From: Phorcus lineatus
Lineage: Eukaryota; Mollusca; Gastropoda; Trochida; Trochidae
DNA: 64,000 bases
Direction of reading: 5' to 3'
Assembly: GCA_921293015.1 (NCBI GenBank)
Contig: OV121086.1
Coordinates: 40,379,402 to 40,443,401 of the forward strand
Position numbers and translations under genes: made by a program. Under the pieces are notes generated by a model that saw only the letters and a program-made list of their open reading frames with translations, did no database searches and had not been told where the DNA came from. Each line of letters begins with the position of its first letter. Within the stretch, counting starts at the first letter, position 1. Positions 5,490 through 46,128 of this stretch are shown in pieces.

Positions 5490-5890
5490 TGCCTGAATTT
5501 TCATAAATAGCATACCTGGCATAACGACAATGACATCCATTACTGCAAACACGTCACCCACTACATAAACTCCACAGCCTTTGCATGATTGACATGCTAT
5601 CAACAACACGGTTGTGTATCAAACACTATCCAATGATCCTGTAATTGGCTGTTCACATTTCTAGCATTTCTCTGCACGATGTGACATCAACTGACCTTGA
5701 TAATGCAACCCTGAACAAAACCATTTGCTCTAATTCTATCTGGATGGCAATTCTGAAGCGCGAGCTCCGATTCTATCTGGATGCAATTTTCTGAAGCATG
5801 GAATCTAATTTCTAATCCCACCGACAGCTGATGGATTCTTGATGGCGACAACAGATGCACGAAATGTACAAGCAATCAACTTTAACTTTG
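5490..5890. promoter_or_regulatory. GC-richer candidate regulatory block with 37 bp-spaced direct repeat
   Basis: The block is richer in G+C than its surroundings and open in several frames without an identifiable protein. It holds GCATGATTGACATGC near 5584-5598, a near match to the PBX/MEIS composite TGATTGACAG. The segment GATTCTATCTGGATG with a following TTCTGAAGC recurs in direct repeat with about 37 bp spacing between 5730 and 5800. Regulatory function is inferred from composition and motifs only. Confidence 0.25.
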
Positions 5891-6864
5891 ATGGGAACAG
5901 GTATAAGAGAAACTGAATCTGTTAAGCTTCGTATGATTTGCAGCGATGTTTTCAATTCATGGGCGGAACTAATCTTTTTTGAATGTGTAGGCTAAATCTG
6001 ACTTCATAATCAGTTACCCTTTTTAAATAGTTTATCGTCAAATTATTTCAAACATAAGTGTTTTCAATTCAGAGATGTAAAAATGTATTAGCTTAATTTA
6101 TCGTCATACAAAGTTATTAATGCAATGACAGATGTTTATAATTTGAAAAAAAAAAATTCATTCAAAATCCAGAAGTTGGACTTCCTATGTAATACCACTC
6201 CAAAAGCGGTAGCAGTTGAGCCATTTGCCTTAATTCATTCAAAATTTTCCCCCACATACAGTGCTGTCACTTAGAACAGATAAATTTGTGTTGTTAGGTC
6301 ATGAGTTAATGGTATTCAAAATCAAAATTGAAACTGTAAAAGGTTAACTTGATAAGCAAGTTCTGGACAATATAGAACTCAAGGTTATCTTTCAAAACTA
6401 TAGGTAACTATAGTAACATAGGTAAAGAGATATCCCCACCATTAAAGCCAAAGTTACTTCAAGTATGTTAATAAACTGATAAGTACACTATTACTTATCA
6501 ACAAACTCAACCATAAGCTTAAACATTGAAATCAAGGTTTTCATCTAGAGGTCATTTGATTTATCAGTTGTATCAACAAATATCAAATTACCATTCATAA
6601 ATTACAAGATTTGTTTTGAACATAAATGTACTGATTTTGTATTGTTTTTTAAATGCTACTTTAATAGAAAAAAATTTAATTGCAAAAAGGCAAATTGTAA
6701 TTTACTTTTCTCTTCTTAAAAAATGGATAAGTATTATTATATCCATTTCATATACATATATTTATTCATATGTCAGAGCATTGTTAAGTCAACAACTTTG
6801 TGATATCCAAGTAGTGCAAGCTTTACACAGCCTTGTGATGTCACTAGCTGATGATGGGATAGCT
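5891..6864. other. AT-rich non-coding stretch
   Basis: No gene or element seen. A plus-strand open frame starting at 6616 runs into the MITE at 6865 and is not a gene. Confidence 0.5.
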
Positions 6865-7220
6865 TTAAAAGGGCCAGTAGCATGTTTTGTGAAAATGTCA
6901 AATGTTACCCAAATGTATTTTGCCCCAAATGCCAAATTTATCAACTTCAGAGGGTCAAATATCACTTAACTCAAGTCAGTCATCGGTAGTCCTAAATGAA
7001 ATTTTCAATGGTCAAGCACAAACCTTAGGCAGCCATTTTTTAATGAAAACTTGTTCACCATTTGAGGTATGGAAATGGATTAGCAAAGCTTAAATGAACA
7101 TGGTTTTCTTTCCTTTTAGAATAGCTTCTTTTGATCAAGAAACATTGTCTTGAAATTAGCAACATTTTGTTTTGTTATCATGAGATCACTTTGCTTATGT
7201 AAAACAATATGCTACTTTAA
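6865..7220 (-). mobile_element. TTAA-flanked MITE, copy 1
   Basis: TTAA at 6865-6868 and 7217-7220 bracket about 350 bp with short inverted ends (AAAGGGCCAGTAGCAT at the left; ATGCTACTTTAA at the right). The inside shares the family core CTTGTTCACCATTTGAGGTATGG and CAGAGGGTCAAAT with copies at 52.7 and 57.3 kb, in reverse orientation to the 52.7 kb copy. There is no transposase. TTAA duplication is typical of piggyBac and Kolobok elements; which of these mobilised it cannot be told here. Confidence 0.75.
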
Positions 7221-8325
7221 AAGTGATTTAAGGTGATTTGTAGCAGTATCTCCATGTAGATGTCAAACAAGTGATATTTACTGTGATAGCTAGTTTGGTT
7301 GATAAAGGTATGATATACACTTATATAAAAGCACTAAGTACTTAATTTTCAAAGGCCTTTCCAGTTTAGGCGGATGGATTGAACATCTCAATACCAGTCT
7401 TTAATCTTCAGATGTCTGACATTTCACAAATAGTGTTGTTATAGCCAGAATACTAATCTTCTGTACACATTATATACACGGCTTTCTCTTACTGGATCAT
7501 ATTTCATTAAATGATCATTAATAATATAAACAAGAAACTAATATCCACTACTTATTTCTGTTAGTAGATAATATTTATCACATCTTGATTTTGAAAGGAA
7601 CAATAAACGCATCTGAATTGTAGTTAATGTGTTTGTCGTTGGGAATTTGTAAAAAATCATTTGTTTATATGATATTGAATATATCAAAAGAGTATTCTAA
7701 CAGTTATCACTAAATACTAACATGAAAAAATATCAAGTTGTATGTTGGAATATTGAACATTACCATTGATATGCATAGACATAACCCATTAAAAATACAT
7801 CATTTTATTTATATTTATAAATCCCGCTGATATTGATATGATCATAAATTAAACCTGAATTTTCTTAAATATCCCATTCTTTTGCCAAAAAATCTGTAGG
7901 GCAAAACAAATCGAGGATTTTTTCTCATTCAGGTTTCCTTTAAGATCAATGATGGCTATGAGTGAAAAAATCTGAACCAAAATGAACACAGAAAATAATC
8001 AAACTTGAGATCTATGCCCACCAACCCCCCAGAAAAAATGAAAACTGTATTCACAAACCCATGACAACAATTGGAAGTGTTAGATCATATCAATAAAATG
8101 AAAATCAAGAAAATCAATTTTCACTCTTGACAATAATTGTCAAATTTCCGGCAAAACAGTAAGTTCATACATCTTTAAATAGTACACAGGACTACGTAGA
8201 TGAAGACATGATAGGGGCAGATTATGAAACCTACTTTCAGTTCCTCACCCAGCATTAGCAGACTCTTCATGTATAGTTAATCCTCTGATATTAAAGCTTG
8301 ACATCACGAGACACCTTCATGATAC
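7221..8325. other. AT-rich non-coding stretch
   Basis: No element or exon recognised. Confidence 0.5.
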
Positions 8326-16200: not shown

Positions 16201-16455
16201 AATCTGAATGATTCATAAAGGCTACATCACTGAGGTTAGTCATTTACAGATGTATCACATTTATAGTATAATAGAGACACACTTTGTTATTTCAGTGGTA
16301 TTTTATTTATATTTCATATGTGTCGAAACACAAAATATGATGATATTCATTAAAACATTAACATCGAAAATACATGTTAATAGCTAGATACTAACAATAT
16401 AAACTTTACCACACTATTAACCCAAATGTTCTACCGGCACTCAATAGGTTTCCAA

Positions 16456-16805
16456 TGTTTGACTAATTGTTCTCGGCGATTATGTTTGACTAATTGTTCT
16501 AGTCCGGTTATGTTTGACTGATTGTTCTAGTCCAGTTATGTTTGACTAATTGTTCTAGTCCGGTTATGTTTGACTATTTGTTCTAGTCCGGTTATGTTTG
16601 ACTGATTGTTCTAGTCCGGTTATGTTTGACTAATTGTTCTAGTCCGGTTATGTTTGACTTATTGTTCTAGTCCGGTTATGTTTGACTATTTGTTCTAGTC
16701 CGGTTATGTTTGACTGATTGTTCTAGTCCGGTTATGTTTGACTAATTGTTCTAGTCCGGTTATGTTTGACTAATTGTTCTAGTCCGGTTATGTTTGACTA
16801 ATTGA
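16456..16805. repeat. 28 bp minisatellite, 12.5 copies, with higher-order structure
   Basis: The unit is TGTTTGACTAATTGTTCTAG plus TCCGGTTA. The first copy differs most (CTCGGCGA in place of CTAGTCCGG). Variable bases after GACT run AA, AA, GA, AA, AT, GA, AA, TA, AT, GA, AA, AA, AA. The series AT-GA-AA recurs four units apart, so blocks of 112 bp have been copied as a whole. Confidence 0.95.
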
Positions 16806-30720: not shown

Positions 30721-30879
30721 AGCTTTAACCCCTCTTAGACCTAAAGAATGGTACTAAGGTGAACCTAAGTGTTAAGTTTCTTTGTGCAATGACCCCCAGA
30801 GAGGCACCTAACTACAACTATTTCTTACTACCAACCACTCATAACTACCATCTATTATTTCCTAATTTCATTGCACATA

Positions 30880-31401
30880 CCAAACTACAGTGAATGGACA
30901 ATGCCCCAAACAAGATATACACCAGACACATCCTATACCAAACTACAGTAAATGGACAAAGCCCTAATCCAGATATACACCAGACACATCCTATACCAAA
31001 CTACACTAAATGGACAAAGCCCTAATCCAGATATACACCAGACACATCCTATACCAAACTACAGTGAATGGACAATGCCCCAATCCAGATATACACCAGA
31101 CACATCCTATACCAAACTACAGTAAATGGACAATGCCCCAATCCAGATATACACCAGACACATCCTATACCAAACTACAGTAAATGGACAATGCCCCAAT
31201 CCAGATATACACCAGACACATCCCATACCAAACTACAGTAAATGGACAATGCCCCAATCCAGATATACACCAGACACATCCCATACCAAACTACAGTAAA
31301 TGGACAATGCCCCAATCCAGATATACACCAGACACATCCTATACCAAACTACAGTAAATGGACAATGCCCCAATCCAGATATACACCAGACACATCCTAT
31401 A
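30880..31401. repeat. 58 bp minisatellite, nine copies
   Basis: The unit begins CCAAACTACAGTAAATGGAC and contains CCCCAATCCAGATATACACC and AGACACATCC. Nine copies start at 30880 and every 58 bp after. The first three carry more variants (AAACAAG, GCCCTAATCC, ACACTAAAT); the last six are nearly identical. Open frames on both strands (31233-31445) are products of this array. Confidence 0.97.
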
Positions 31402-31859
31402 CTAATGTGAAGATAATCAGACATCACAGGAGTGTATAGTAACATTGTTCCAGTGGAGCTGACAGATCCCAGATACTGCTGGTGACAGCTGGAAGTCAGA
31501 ACACAGCCCTGTACTTTATTCCACTCATAATTATACCTCTAGGTGAGGCTGTTCGAGCATGATATACTCTAACCTACACAGTAATTATCTCAGAGAGTCC
31601 GTCCTGGACATAAACACATAAGTATGGCCAATCCAAATGGTCATCTAGTGTTAGCAAGTACAGTTTGGTGAAATCCTTCACAGGACTTTATCAAACATGT
31701 AATTATAAATTAAGATAATGGATGATCTCTTCGGCCTTAACAGAAATTATCCAAGTAAGTCAGTCCTCGTAATCAACATTGTAATTGTCATCAATGTGTT
31801 TTTTAATTGATGGTAAATACATTTTTTGGAAATCCTTCACAAGAAATAGATTTCTGTGT
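31402..31859. other. Non-coding stretch
   Basis: No gene or element recognised. Confidence 0.5.
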
Positions 31860-41984: not shown

Positions 41985-42040
41985 TACCCTCTACAACTAC
42001 AGTATCTTCACATCGTCATCATTATGACAGATTTCTTGTA
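41985..42040. repeat. 70 bp satellite, left remnant of interrupted array
   Basis: CCCTCTACAACTACAGTATC through GACAGATTTCTTGTA is most of one unit of the 70 bp array that continues after the inserted element. The last five bases, TTGTA (42036-42040), are the left copy of the target-site duplication. Confidence 0.95.
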
Positions 42041-42286
42041 CAGGCCTACCAAGGTAACGGATCAAATAACCTCCAAATGGAACGAATAACCACATGAATG
42101 GATTAGATTACCTCCAAAACGGTACAAATAACCTCGTCAGCGGTATTAATAACCACAAAACGGAACGAATAACCTCAAAACGGATTCAATAACCTCGATT
42201 TGCGCAGCGCATCCCTACGATCTACCCAGTTTGACTGAAGGAGCCCAGTCTTTTGTTTTATGTTTAGACTACACCAGCGGCTCTCA
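42041..42286 (+). repeat. Left terminal inverted repeat of the 3.2 kb element
   Basis: About 246 bp pairing with 44959-45197 with a handful of mismatches. Outer 18 bp CAGGCCTACCAAGGTAAC, then GGNNNNNATAACC-type motifs starting at 42059, 42079, 42100, 42121, 42142, 42162 and 42182 (spacing 20 or 21 bp). An inner unique part follows: GCGCAGCGCATCCC, GACTGAAGGAGCCCAGTC, CAGCGGCTCTCA. A further matching AAAGTTACGGTA lies just inside (about 42290). Confidence 0.95.
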
Positions 42287-44161
42287 ACAAAGTTACGGTA
42301 GCAGTGAAATTTTCCCCCACCATATAAAAAAAATCATTATAATGTCGTAATTTCATCTCAACCACGGTGTTCTATTCGCTGTCTTTGACCCGATGAGGTC
42401 ATAATTTGCATAATGTAGACCAAGCGATCGCGAAACAGGATTCGGTCACGAATAAAATCCCTGTGAGTAGATTTTGTCAAATGTTGATGTTATTTTCATA
42501 TAGCCCTACAATCAAACTAGAAGACATTTACCACCAGATAATCTAAAAATTCAATCGTAACTATGTTCGCATGCATGAACCGTGTTGGATATGACGTGAC
42601 ACTGTAATCGATCGATAGTTTTAGTTGAGTTTGTATTGCGGCGAATTTGAGTTTTGCTACACACGCACTAAAATCGTAGATCACAAATTTATTTATAGTG
42701 TAAATATAATTTTATTGTACGATTATAATTGTAGAGGTCTTGTTGTTCACTATTTTTAGTTTGGAATGTTGTCCTTCATAGAAATTTATCCGTTTTCAAA
42801 AAAATCGCAAGTGTTATTTCTCAATAATGATAGCAAATGGAAGGGACATGTAAAGGGGACTATCTCAAATAATTTTTTAATAATATGTAAATATCACGAC
42901 TTTTTTTACACCCATGAAAATATGGAAATTTCAAACATCAAATAACATTCTATTCGTGCTTAATTACTGCGAAAATAACAAACAAAATATGGGTCTAATG
43001 ATGACCGGCGCAGACATCAAGTGAGTTGTTGACACTTTCCCCGATGCGTTCCGTAGCTGATGTCACAAGTGTGTAGATTGTATATTTCACGACTATTCGA
43101 GATTAAAAGTAAATAAATCCTTCAACTCTCAGCTTCAAAAATGTATTCTCTCCTTAGTTTTAAATGGAATTTGTACAATATGAAAATAATTTCTCAATAT
43201 CTTGATTTGAAGATCTCTGTGTGGTGTAACTGATACAGACTTTTTGATCCGGTTTGTTTGGCCAGGGATCGTATAGACATATGATTCCTGGTTTGGCGAT
43301 TACAATGAGAGATCGACGTTCAAATATAAGATGATATAGATGTAATCGATGTTATAAACTATTATTGCATTTGGAACATATAAAGCTGAATAGATTTCCT
43401 ACACTTCCGGGTTAAGTTTATAACGATTGATACGTTGTTTGAAATATTATCAGCACGAATTATCCTTGATTTTCTCTCTCATTTTCAATGCATAACGTAC
43501 CAGTCCTTGCTTGCTGGACCGAACTCCCTGTCATGCACCTTAATTATTTTCTGGTACAAAATTTTATTCTGAACAAAATGATGTAAAAAATATTTTTTTT
43601 AAAATTAGTGACAAACAGCCTCCTCCGATTTGGAATATTTAGTACAGATTTTTAACTTGTGAATTTTTGTATTTCATTCATCGACACTAGCTTTTGAATA
43701 ATATCAGAGAAAAAAAGAAGAAAAAATGACAATATCTCGAAATAAAAATAATTCATTCAGAGAAATTGGTATTTTTGAAATATTAATCTTTTGATAATAT
43801 TCAAGTTTGGTTATTTCGGAACAATGTCAACATTGTACTTAACTATATTCTATCTTTATGATGAAACAAGATTTTAAAAAAAATTCTAAACCTTTTGATA
43901 TCCTCTTTATATTTTGCGTAAACATTATTTTTTGGAGTTAGTTCTTATATCTGTAGTAAAAAGTTACATTCAACACATATAGAAACCTTTAATACATTTT
44001 CCATGTCACATGTCTCATCATTGACTATCAAGCTGTTCATAAACAAGCCAAACGGGGAATACTTTATAAAGAATTTTTTTTCAAAAATTTAGGCAGACTT
44101 CAAACCAGCGAACTTCGAAGAAAATGTAGTTTTTAGTACTTCTTCTGGTTCATTCATTTAT

Positions 44162-44777
44162 TACAGTGCTGTCGGGTAAAGCTACGCACCTAAGAGATTT
44201 ATATAAATGTTCATTCTTCCGGAAAAAATACAGTATATGGGATAAAAACCACGTCACTGTTAAAGTTTAGAGCATCACTGATAATATCAATGTAAAATAT
44301 TCATGCTGAAATGTGTTTGTCAGTGACACTGAAAGTTTTCCAACGACTACCCCCCTATTCCCGTAGGTGGTCACGTGTAGGCTAAAGATACGCACGCCGG
44401 GTTTGAATGCTCTTTAGTTTACACTTCCAATATTATGATTTTGATAGATTTTAAAACTGTTTTCGGAAGTCTAGGTTAGGACAAACTGAAAGTCGGATCA
44501 ATAATTTGGTTTCCAATAACAATTGTTATGTGGGAAGGCAAACTGCTTGATTACGATATGTTTTCTAGGAATTTTGTCAGTTTTTACCAATTTTTTGCTA
44601 ACAATCAACAATTAAGTCCTTTTTACCTTTTCAAAAATGTCATGATATCTTCTAAATTGCCTTAAGATGCATAGACATAAATTGATTAGAATCTAAAACT
44701 CATCTTGCTTTACTAGGTTAAGTTTTGTGCGAGTGCGTATCTTTATCCGACGCGTATCTTTACCCGACACGGCTGTA
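44162..44777. repeat. Internal inverted repeat within the 3.2 kb element
   Basis: TACAGTGCTGTCGGGTAAAG with CTACGCAC at 44162-44189 pairs with the complement of the 44727-44777 end, where the motif is doubled (GCGTATCTTTATCCGA then CGCGTATCTTTACCCGACAC). A further copy, GGCTAAAGATACGCAC, lies at 44380-44395. It may be a nested short element or a set of protein-binding sites. No clear target duplication flanks it. Confidence 0.5.
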
Positions 44778-44958
44778 CACCATTTGCAAATATAGATAGG
44801 CCTATTGTTGATTCTCGTAACCACAATACATATTTTCAAATTTTAGTAGGCCTAAAATTATTGTGTCGGTGACCAAATCATCATTAGATTACCGTAACTT
44901 TTGGATTCAAGTAGGCCTAAAAACCTTTTAATTGTTTTGTTTTTTTATCAGGCAAAAT

Positions 44959-45197
44959 GAGAGCCGCTGGCGTAAACATAAACAAAAGACTGGGCTCCTT
45001 CAGTCAAATTGGGTAGATCGTAGGGATGCGCTGCGCAAATCGAGGTTATTGAATCCGTTTTGAGGTTATTCGTTCCGTTTTGAGGTTATTAATACCGTTG
45101 ACGAGGTTATTTGTACCGTTTTGGAGGTAATCTAATCCATTCATGCGGTTATTTGTTCCATTTGGAGGTTATTTGATCCGTTACCTTGGTAGGCCTG
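44959..45197 (-). repeat. Right terminal inverted repeat of the 3.2 kb element
   Basis: Reverse complement of the left repeat, with the same seven 13 bp motifs in inverted order (first GGTTATTGAATCC at 45044, last GGTTATTTGATCC at 45167). Small differences from the left arm (for example CACATGAATG versus CGCATGAATG, and a few bases missing after CTTTTGTTT) show independent drift since insertion or copying. Confidence 0.95.
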
Positions 45198-45202
45198 TTG
45201 TA

Positions 45203-46128
45203 TGTCTCAAATGACACACCTTCTACAACTACAGTATCTTCACACCGTCATCATTGTGACAGATTTCTTGTACGTCTCAAATGACACACCCTCTACAACT
45301 ACAGTATCTTCACACCGTCATCATTGTGACAGATTTCTTGTACGTCTCAAATGACACACCCTCTACAACTACAGTATCTTCACACCGTCATCATTATGAC
45401 AGATTTCTTGTACGTCTCAAATGACACACCCTCTACAACTACAGTATCTTCACACCGTCATCATTATGACAGATTTCTTGTACGTCTCAAATGACACACC
45501 CTCTACAACTACAGTATCTTCACACCATCATCATTGTGACAGATTTCTTGTACGTCTCAAATGACACACCCTCTACAACTACAGTATCTTCACACCGTCA
45601 TCATTATGACAGATTTCTTGTACGTCTCAAATGACACACCCTCTACAACTACAGTATCTTCACACTGTCATCATTATGACAGATTTCTTGTACGTCTCAA
45701 ATGACACACCCTCTACAACTACAGTATCTTCACACCGTCATCATTATGACAGATTTCTTGTACGTCTCAAATGACACACCCTCTACAACTACAGTATCTT
45801 CACACCGTCATCATTATGACAGATTTCTTGTACGTCTCAAATGACACACCCTCTACAACTACAGTATCTTCACACCGTCATCATTATGACAGATTTCTTG
45901 TACGTCTCAAATGACACACCCTCTACAACTACAGTATCTTCACACCGTCATCATTATGACAGATTTCTTGTACATTTCAAATGACACACCCTCTACAACT
46001 ACAGTAACTTCACACTGTCATCATTATGACAGATTTCTTGTACATTTCAAATGACACACCCTCTACAACTACAGTATCTTCACACCGTCATCATTATGAC
46101 AGATTTCTTGTATGTCTCAAATGACACA
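45203..46128. repeat. 70 bp satellite, about 13 copies right of the element
   Basis: The unit has GACAGATTTCTTGTACGTCT, CAAATGACACACCCTCTACA and ACTACAGTATCTTCACACCG plus TCATCATTAT. Copies follow at exactly 70 bp (GAC at 45258, 45328, and so on to 46098). Few variants occur: G or A in CATTRTGAC, CCATCA or CTGTCA in single units, and TACATTTCAA in two adjacent units near 45971 and 46041. Confidence 0.98.

Follow-up and report, generated by a model that had tools for sequence, protein, structure and literature searches.

The window, the whole stretch of 64,000 nucleotides that was analyzed (C11:40379402-40443401), lies in the 957.8-Mb genome of Phorcus lineatus (74 contigs) and carries, within 70-bp satellite DNA, an insertion bounded by long terminal inverted repeats. 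The features at the locus are as follows.

41986-42040, plus strand: partial 70-bp satellite unit left of the insertion (joined flanks match the satellite unit at 141/145 positions)
42036-42040, unstranded: TTGTA, left target-site duplication, read from the sequence
42041-42286, plus strand: left terminal inverted repeat, 246 bp, with the CAGGCCTACC end (234/246 positions identical to the right repeat)
42056-42196, plus strand: tandem units of about 20 bp in the left inverted repeat, read as tandem-repeat units (seven ATAACC in the family consensus)
42287-44161, plus strand: non-coding interior common to other copies, by comparison with them (no Pfam match in five of the six consensus frames)
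44162-44163, unstranded: TA left of the nested insert, from the sequence
44164-44775, unstranded: nested 612-bp insert with imperfect inverted ends CAGTGCTGTCGGGTAAAG and CAGCCGTGTCGGGTAAAG, foreign to the family (absent from the compared loci)
44776-44777, unstranded: TA right of the nested insert, from the sequence
44778-44957, plus strand: interior right of the nested insert, common to other copies, by comparison with them
44958-45197, minus strand: right terminal inverted repeat, 240 bp, by comparison with the left repeat and with other copies
45042-45183, minus strand: tandem units of about 20 bp in the right inverted repeat, read as tandem-repeat units
45198-45202, unstranded: TTGTA, right target-site duplication, read from the sequence and an exact match to the left one
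45198-46128, plus strand: 70-bp satellite array right of the insertion (13.3 copies, 97% matches)

The element spans 42041-45197 (3,157 bp), running from CAGGCCTACC to GGTAGGCCTG with base-exact coordinates. A sequence-only reading had placed TTGTA on both sides of CAGGCCTACC termini, and coordinates, ends, and duplication all proved exact; the inverted repeats, which it gave as about 245 bp, measured 246 and 240 bp and agree at 234 of the 246 positions aligned. Its empty site, drawn from the neighboring 70-bp units, was likewise recovered: once the element and one TTGTA were removed, 141 of 145 positions spanning the junction agreed with the satellite unit. The 3,157-bp insertion had also been taken as one element, and here the boundaries held but the unity did not, since the nested 612-bp insert lies within them. 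Older-type copies (e.g., L009 to L014) match both sides of the insert site without the 612-bp insert, and because this TA-flanked segment is absent from other copies, the interval is a composite, with a host element of about 2,543 bp once the insert is taken out. No second copy of the insert was found in the window or in the other loci compared, in which only its flank was matched; its TA duplication suggests a putative Tc1/mariner-type MITE. As had been read from the letters, no transposase-sized frame is present in the window copy, in which stop-to-stop frames reach at most 65 amino acids (aa).

Searching the genome with the 25-bp end at up to 3 mismatches yielded 84 forward and 82 reverse matches, compared with none on either strand for the reversed-pattern control (all 166 were counted; the listing covers the first 100, each an exact match). 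A majority consensus built from 19 copies measures 2,576 bp. Twelve copies form a young, nearly uniform subgroup with a pairwise interior difference of approximately 0.8 to 1.3%, and seven, including the window copy, form a second subgroup with a difference of approximately 2 to 3.4%; between the two subgroups, the interiors differ by approximately 4 to 6%. The copies compared were the best matches to the left end of the window copy and not a random sample, and the 0% divergence seen in the left inverted repeat of the young copies was set aside because these copies had been chosen by similarity to that very repeat. The low interior divergence among some copies suggests recent activity of the family. 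For L015, one end was found and the second was not found in the stretch examined; L048 did not match the other loci compared.

Target-site duplications were assessed in 30 paired copies, after the pairings of L027 (8,926 bp) and L034 (1,554 bp), attributed to chance, and one of two pairings of L033, a tandem duplicate, had been dropped from 33 rows. An unambiguous 5-bp duplication was present in 25 of the 30 (including the window copy and a 26.4-kb copy described below), a 6-bp duplication in two (L012 and L029), an ambiguous one in two (L027, in an A-run, and L035, in a microsatellite), and a 5-bp duplication with one mismatch in the remaining copy (L044, TTGTA/TTCTA). In cross-paired flanks, computed on all 33 rows including those later dropped, 5-bp agreement occurred in 17 of 1,056 combinations. 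Most copies thus share the 5-bp duplication, and the two 6-bp cases speak against a fixed length. The 25 five-base duplications tabulated for base composition (L035 included, the 26.4-kb copy left out) had A at position 1 in 20 and T at position 5 in 19. With inverted ends and a near-constant duplication length at many sites, the family is a TIR (cut-and-paste) DNA transposon. The right end of L033 and its flank are present twice, 1,661 bp apart, as if tandemly duplicated.

The CAGGCCTACC terminus was present in all 100 plus 100 places listed from two end searches; the right end of L018 has one change from CAGGCCTACC, and variant ends carry GGATG or GGAAC in place of GGATC. Further inward, the consensus end contains seven ATAACC units at positions 26, 46, 67, 88, 109, 129, and 149, spaced by 20, 21, 21, 21, 20, and 20 bp (units of approximately 20.5 bp in each end). 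When the first 160 bases were shuffled 2,000 times, ATAACC occurred 0.13 times on average and at most 3 times, versus the 7 observed. Their spacing of two helical turns suggests that the units form a putative array of binding sites, all facing the same side of the DNA.

Relatives with the same ends and gene-like regions were found elsewhere in the genome. One of them, at C1:35854966-35881321, is a 26,356-bp pair of ends that has the family's inverted repeats and is flanked on each side by AGGTG. On its right side, C2H2 zinc-finger frames on the minus strand and a 3' exon-like frame on the plus strand lie tail to tail and were read as parts of two convergent genes (3.8 kb was read at the right and 2.4 kb at the left, with splice sites placed by eye). 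The DNA read beside its ends matched the 2.57-kb consensus in the inverted repeats and in one weak stretch only. The zinc-finger-side DNA recurs on C39 (two places), C2 (within a 2,183-bp pair of ends), C19 (within a 6,906-bp pair), C32 (beside an end), and C5, with a further short piece at C19:12994719. This DNA lies 240 bp from the terminus at C19, C2, and C32 and 242 bp from it in C1, and the equal distance makes the three loci collinear with C1, although it speaks to collinearity with the query only, since the query itself ends 242 bp from the terminus, and provides no independent boundary. The plus-strand-side DNA recurs at C32, C19, and C5, adjoining the zinc-finger-side DNA, with five further short or weak matches elsewhere. 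As both adjoin at the same loci, the two sides keep together at four loci, and family ends are present at three of these.

The sequence-only reading had advised looking for a longer relative with the same ends that encodes a transposase. Longer relatives with these ends do exist; the transposase part did not follow, with no transposase domain seen in the stretches read from one copy (3.8 kb from its right side, 2.4 kb from its left). The plus-strand exon gave no Pfam or NCBIfam match and insignificant PDB matches only, and the zinc-finger gene may derive from captured host DNA. Likewise, no Pfam family was matched in five of the six frames of the 2.57-kb consensus. At the left end of the 26.4-kb copy, the first 152 bp are followed by a retroelement bearing reverse transcriptase (L045, 437-2444), with a 347-aa gag-like frame without a Pfam match and a 404-aa frame with RVT_1; it is probably nested. 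In a PDB search, the plus-strand 3' exon-like frame (L047, 260-493) showed a faint likeness to ribosomal protein L27a/uL15, which was not significant (E = 0.12).

The family is thus mobile, with a defined duplication size and end architecture and with relatives that carry two gene-like regions. We consider it likely that the window copy is a non-autonomous cut-and-paste DNA transposon whose transposase comes in trans from the two-gene relatives with the same ends. Under this reading, the relatives would supply the transposase, and the transposase, the zinc-finger protein, or both would bind the seven repeats that lie in phase with the helix at each end; the bound protein would then pair the ends and excise the element, which would be joined to a target site opened by cuts staggered by 5 bases.

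To which superfamily such an element belongs had been left in doubt from the sequence alone, and this doubt stands; two hAT profiles, a P profile, and a RAG1 profile gave no match in the coding relatives. All profile searches were run exon by exon, so that domains interrupted by introns can escape detection, which weakens every negative given here. One possible assignment, to which we give distinctly less than even weight, is to hAT5, the subgroup of hAT that makes 5-bp duplications; the family would then be non-autonomous and depend on a hAT transposase for its movement. Many hAT elements have CAG-type ends, which favors this assignment; hAT ends are usually short, and the ends here are 240-bp inverted repeats that bear internal repeats. 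The duplications agree: in the available excerpts, those of hAT5 are 5 bp (PMC12730594, PMC9004415) and those of hAT6 are 6 bp (PMC12730594), and those of the present family are 5 and sometimes 6 bp (2 of 30). Because hAT5, credited in the excerpt of PMC12730594 to Kapitonov and Jurka (2007), is a published 5-bp group, a 5-bp duplication alone is not new. Like the present family, hAT5 occurs in animals; it differs from the family in the repeat-bearing inverted repeats, the two-gene relatives, and the lack of a hAT domain with the two profiles. The hAT dimerization profile (PF05699) had at least 150 matches, with 150 of 287 candidates scored; among the matches listed, the one nearest to the 100 listed ends was 52 kb away, and by eye none among the matches listed, from these same 150 of 287 candidates, fell within the coding relatives. 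DUF4371 (PF14291) had 48 matches (117 of 117 candidates scored), none in the coding relatives. Single copies of four hAT families (L040 to L043) had no long inverted repeat, and the one CAGGCCTACCAA in L041 lay inside a frame and not at an end. hAT5 may be too divergent for the hAT profiles used. Filing the family as hAT5 would be premature.

To an equal degree, we regard as possible but doubtful that the family represents a superfamily without a described member, with a two-gene autonomous form. The combination of duplication length, CAGG ends, 240-bp repeats, and two convergent genes had no match among hAT, P, and RAG1; these are the only groups compared by profile, a minority of superfamilies, and introns weaken all of the negatives. 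For the P-type RNase H (PF21787), all 20 candidates were scored and 11 matches resulted genome-wide; none of these lies in the coding relatives, in which introns could hide one. The RAG1 profile had no match in the genome and none in 14 control genomes either, which makes it a weak negative. Transib/RAG elements have a terminal CACNNTG-like heptamer, whereas the ends here are CAGGCCTACC. MuDR/Mutator elements resemble the present family in their long inverted repeats (approximately 200 bp) and two convergent genes but differ in duplication length, which is 9 bp in MuDR/Mutator and 8 to 11 bp in Mutator, compared with 5 to 6 bp here. Duplications are 7 bp in Galileo and 7 to 8 bp in the P superfamily, again longer than the 5 to 6 bp of this family. 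Galileo nevertheless provided the model used for the ends, as its long inverted repeats contain tandem repeats that, according to the excerpt of PMC3688188, hold multiple transposase binding sites. Ginger2/TDD is similar in the 5-bp duplications of TDD-4 and TDD-5 and in the AT-rich targets and inverted repeats (approximately 50 to 180 bp) of Ginger2, but Ginger ends are TGTNR, whereas those here are CAGGC, and the animal members described in the excerpted source make 4-bp duplications (PMC2836005). The Tetris foldback, as described in the excerpt of PMC4079207, is also non-autonomous, foldback-like, and linked with satellite DNA; its duplications are 8 to 10 bp, and the satellite here is a target only.

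That the family is a new superfamily is unproved. We also put forward, as an unlikely but specific proposal, an undescribed superfamily whose autonomous form would have two genes, both with introns and facing each other: on the left, one for a transposase of a type not known, and on the right, one for a C2H2 zinc-finger protein that would read the seven phased 20.5-bp repeats of each 240-bp end. Such elements would make 5-bp duplications and could move large cargo. What sets the family apart is the combination of a 5-bp duplication, long ends bearing phased repeats, and two-gene relatives, which matched none of the few groups tested. If the left-hand gene is an unrecognized transposase, a superfamily with an accessory sequence-specific DNA-binding protein would be added; if the family is hAT5, it would be a structurally unusual branch of it.

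It is very improbable that the family is moved by transposases found inside two long copies. Frames for a 654-aa piggyBac transposase (5862-7823 of the family copy L029, in its right inverted repeat) and for a 482-aa pogo-like DDE_1 transposase (L044) do both lie between CAGGCCTACC ends. Each gene, however, apparently sits in its own nested element, and piggyBac targets TTAA and pogo-like elements TA, not 5 bp. The 9.36-kb pair of L029 was therefore rejected as an autonomous form, as its piggyBac is nested, flanked by TTAA, and has its own ends, CCCTCAAG and CTTGAGGG. So was the 5.7-kb pair of L044, in which the pogo-like element appears nested in its own inverted GACCAGTTATCGCCG ends; this nesting is less certain because the insert lacks a clean TA duplication and approximately 117 consensus bases are missing at the site. 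Neither is likely to be the partner transposase. The 4.0-kb copies L030 and L031 were also rejected as an autonomous form, the longest listed frame of their 1,449-bp insert being 83 aa. These two copies carry the same insert at consensus position 543 and show 99.45% identity over approximately 4 kb. They are located on separate chromosomes, and their duplications differ; since they share the insert at different sites, the insert-bearing copy moved as a unit. The last 150 bases of this insert form a long palindrome.

Foldback-type rearrangement or segmental duplication instead of transposition, which the long inverted repeats with internal repeats might recall, has next to no probability and is refuted for the copies read: nearly all pairs have an exact short duplication, at sites unrelated to one another, and the satellite supplies an empty site.

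Elsewhere in the window, two other homogeneous tandem arrays were seen, one at 30877-31402 (58-bp unit, 9.1 copies, 97%) and one at 16455-16804 (28-bp unit, 12.5 copies, 94%).
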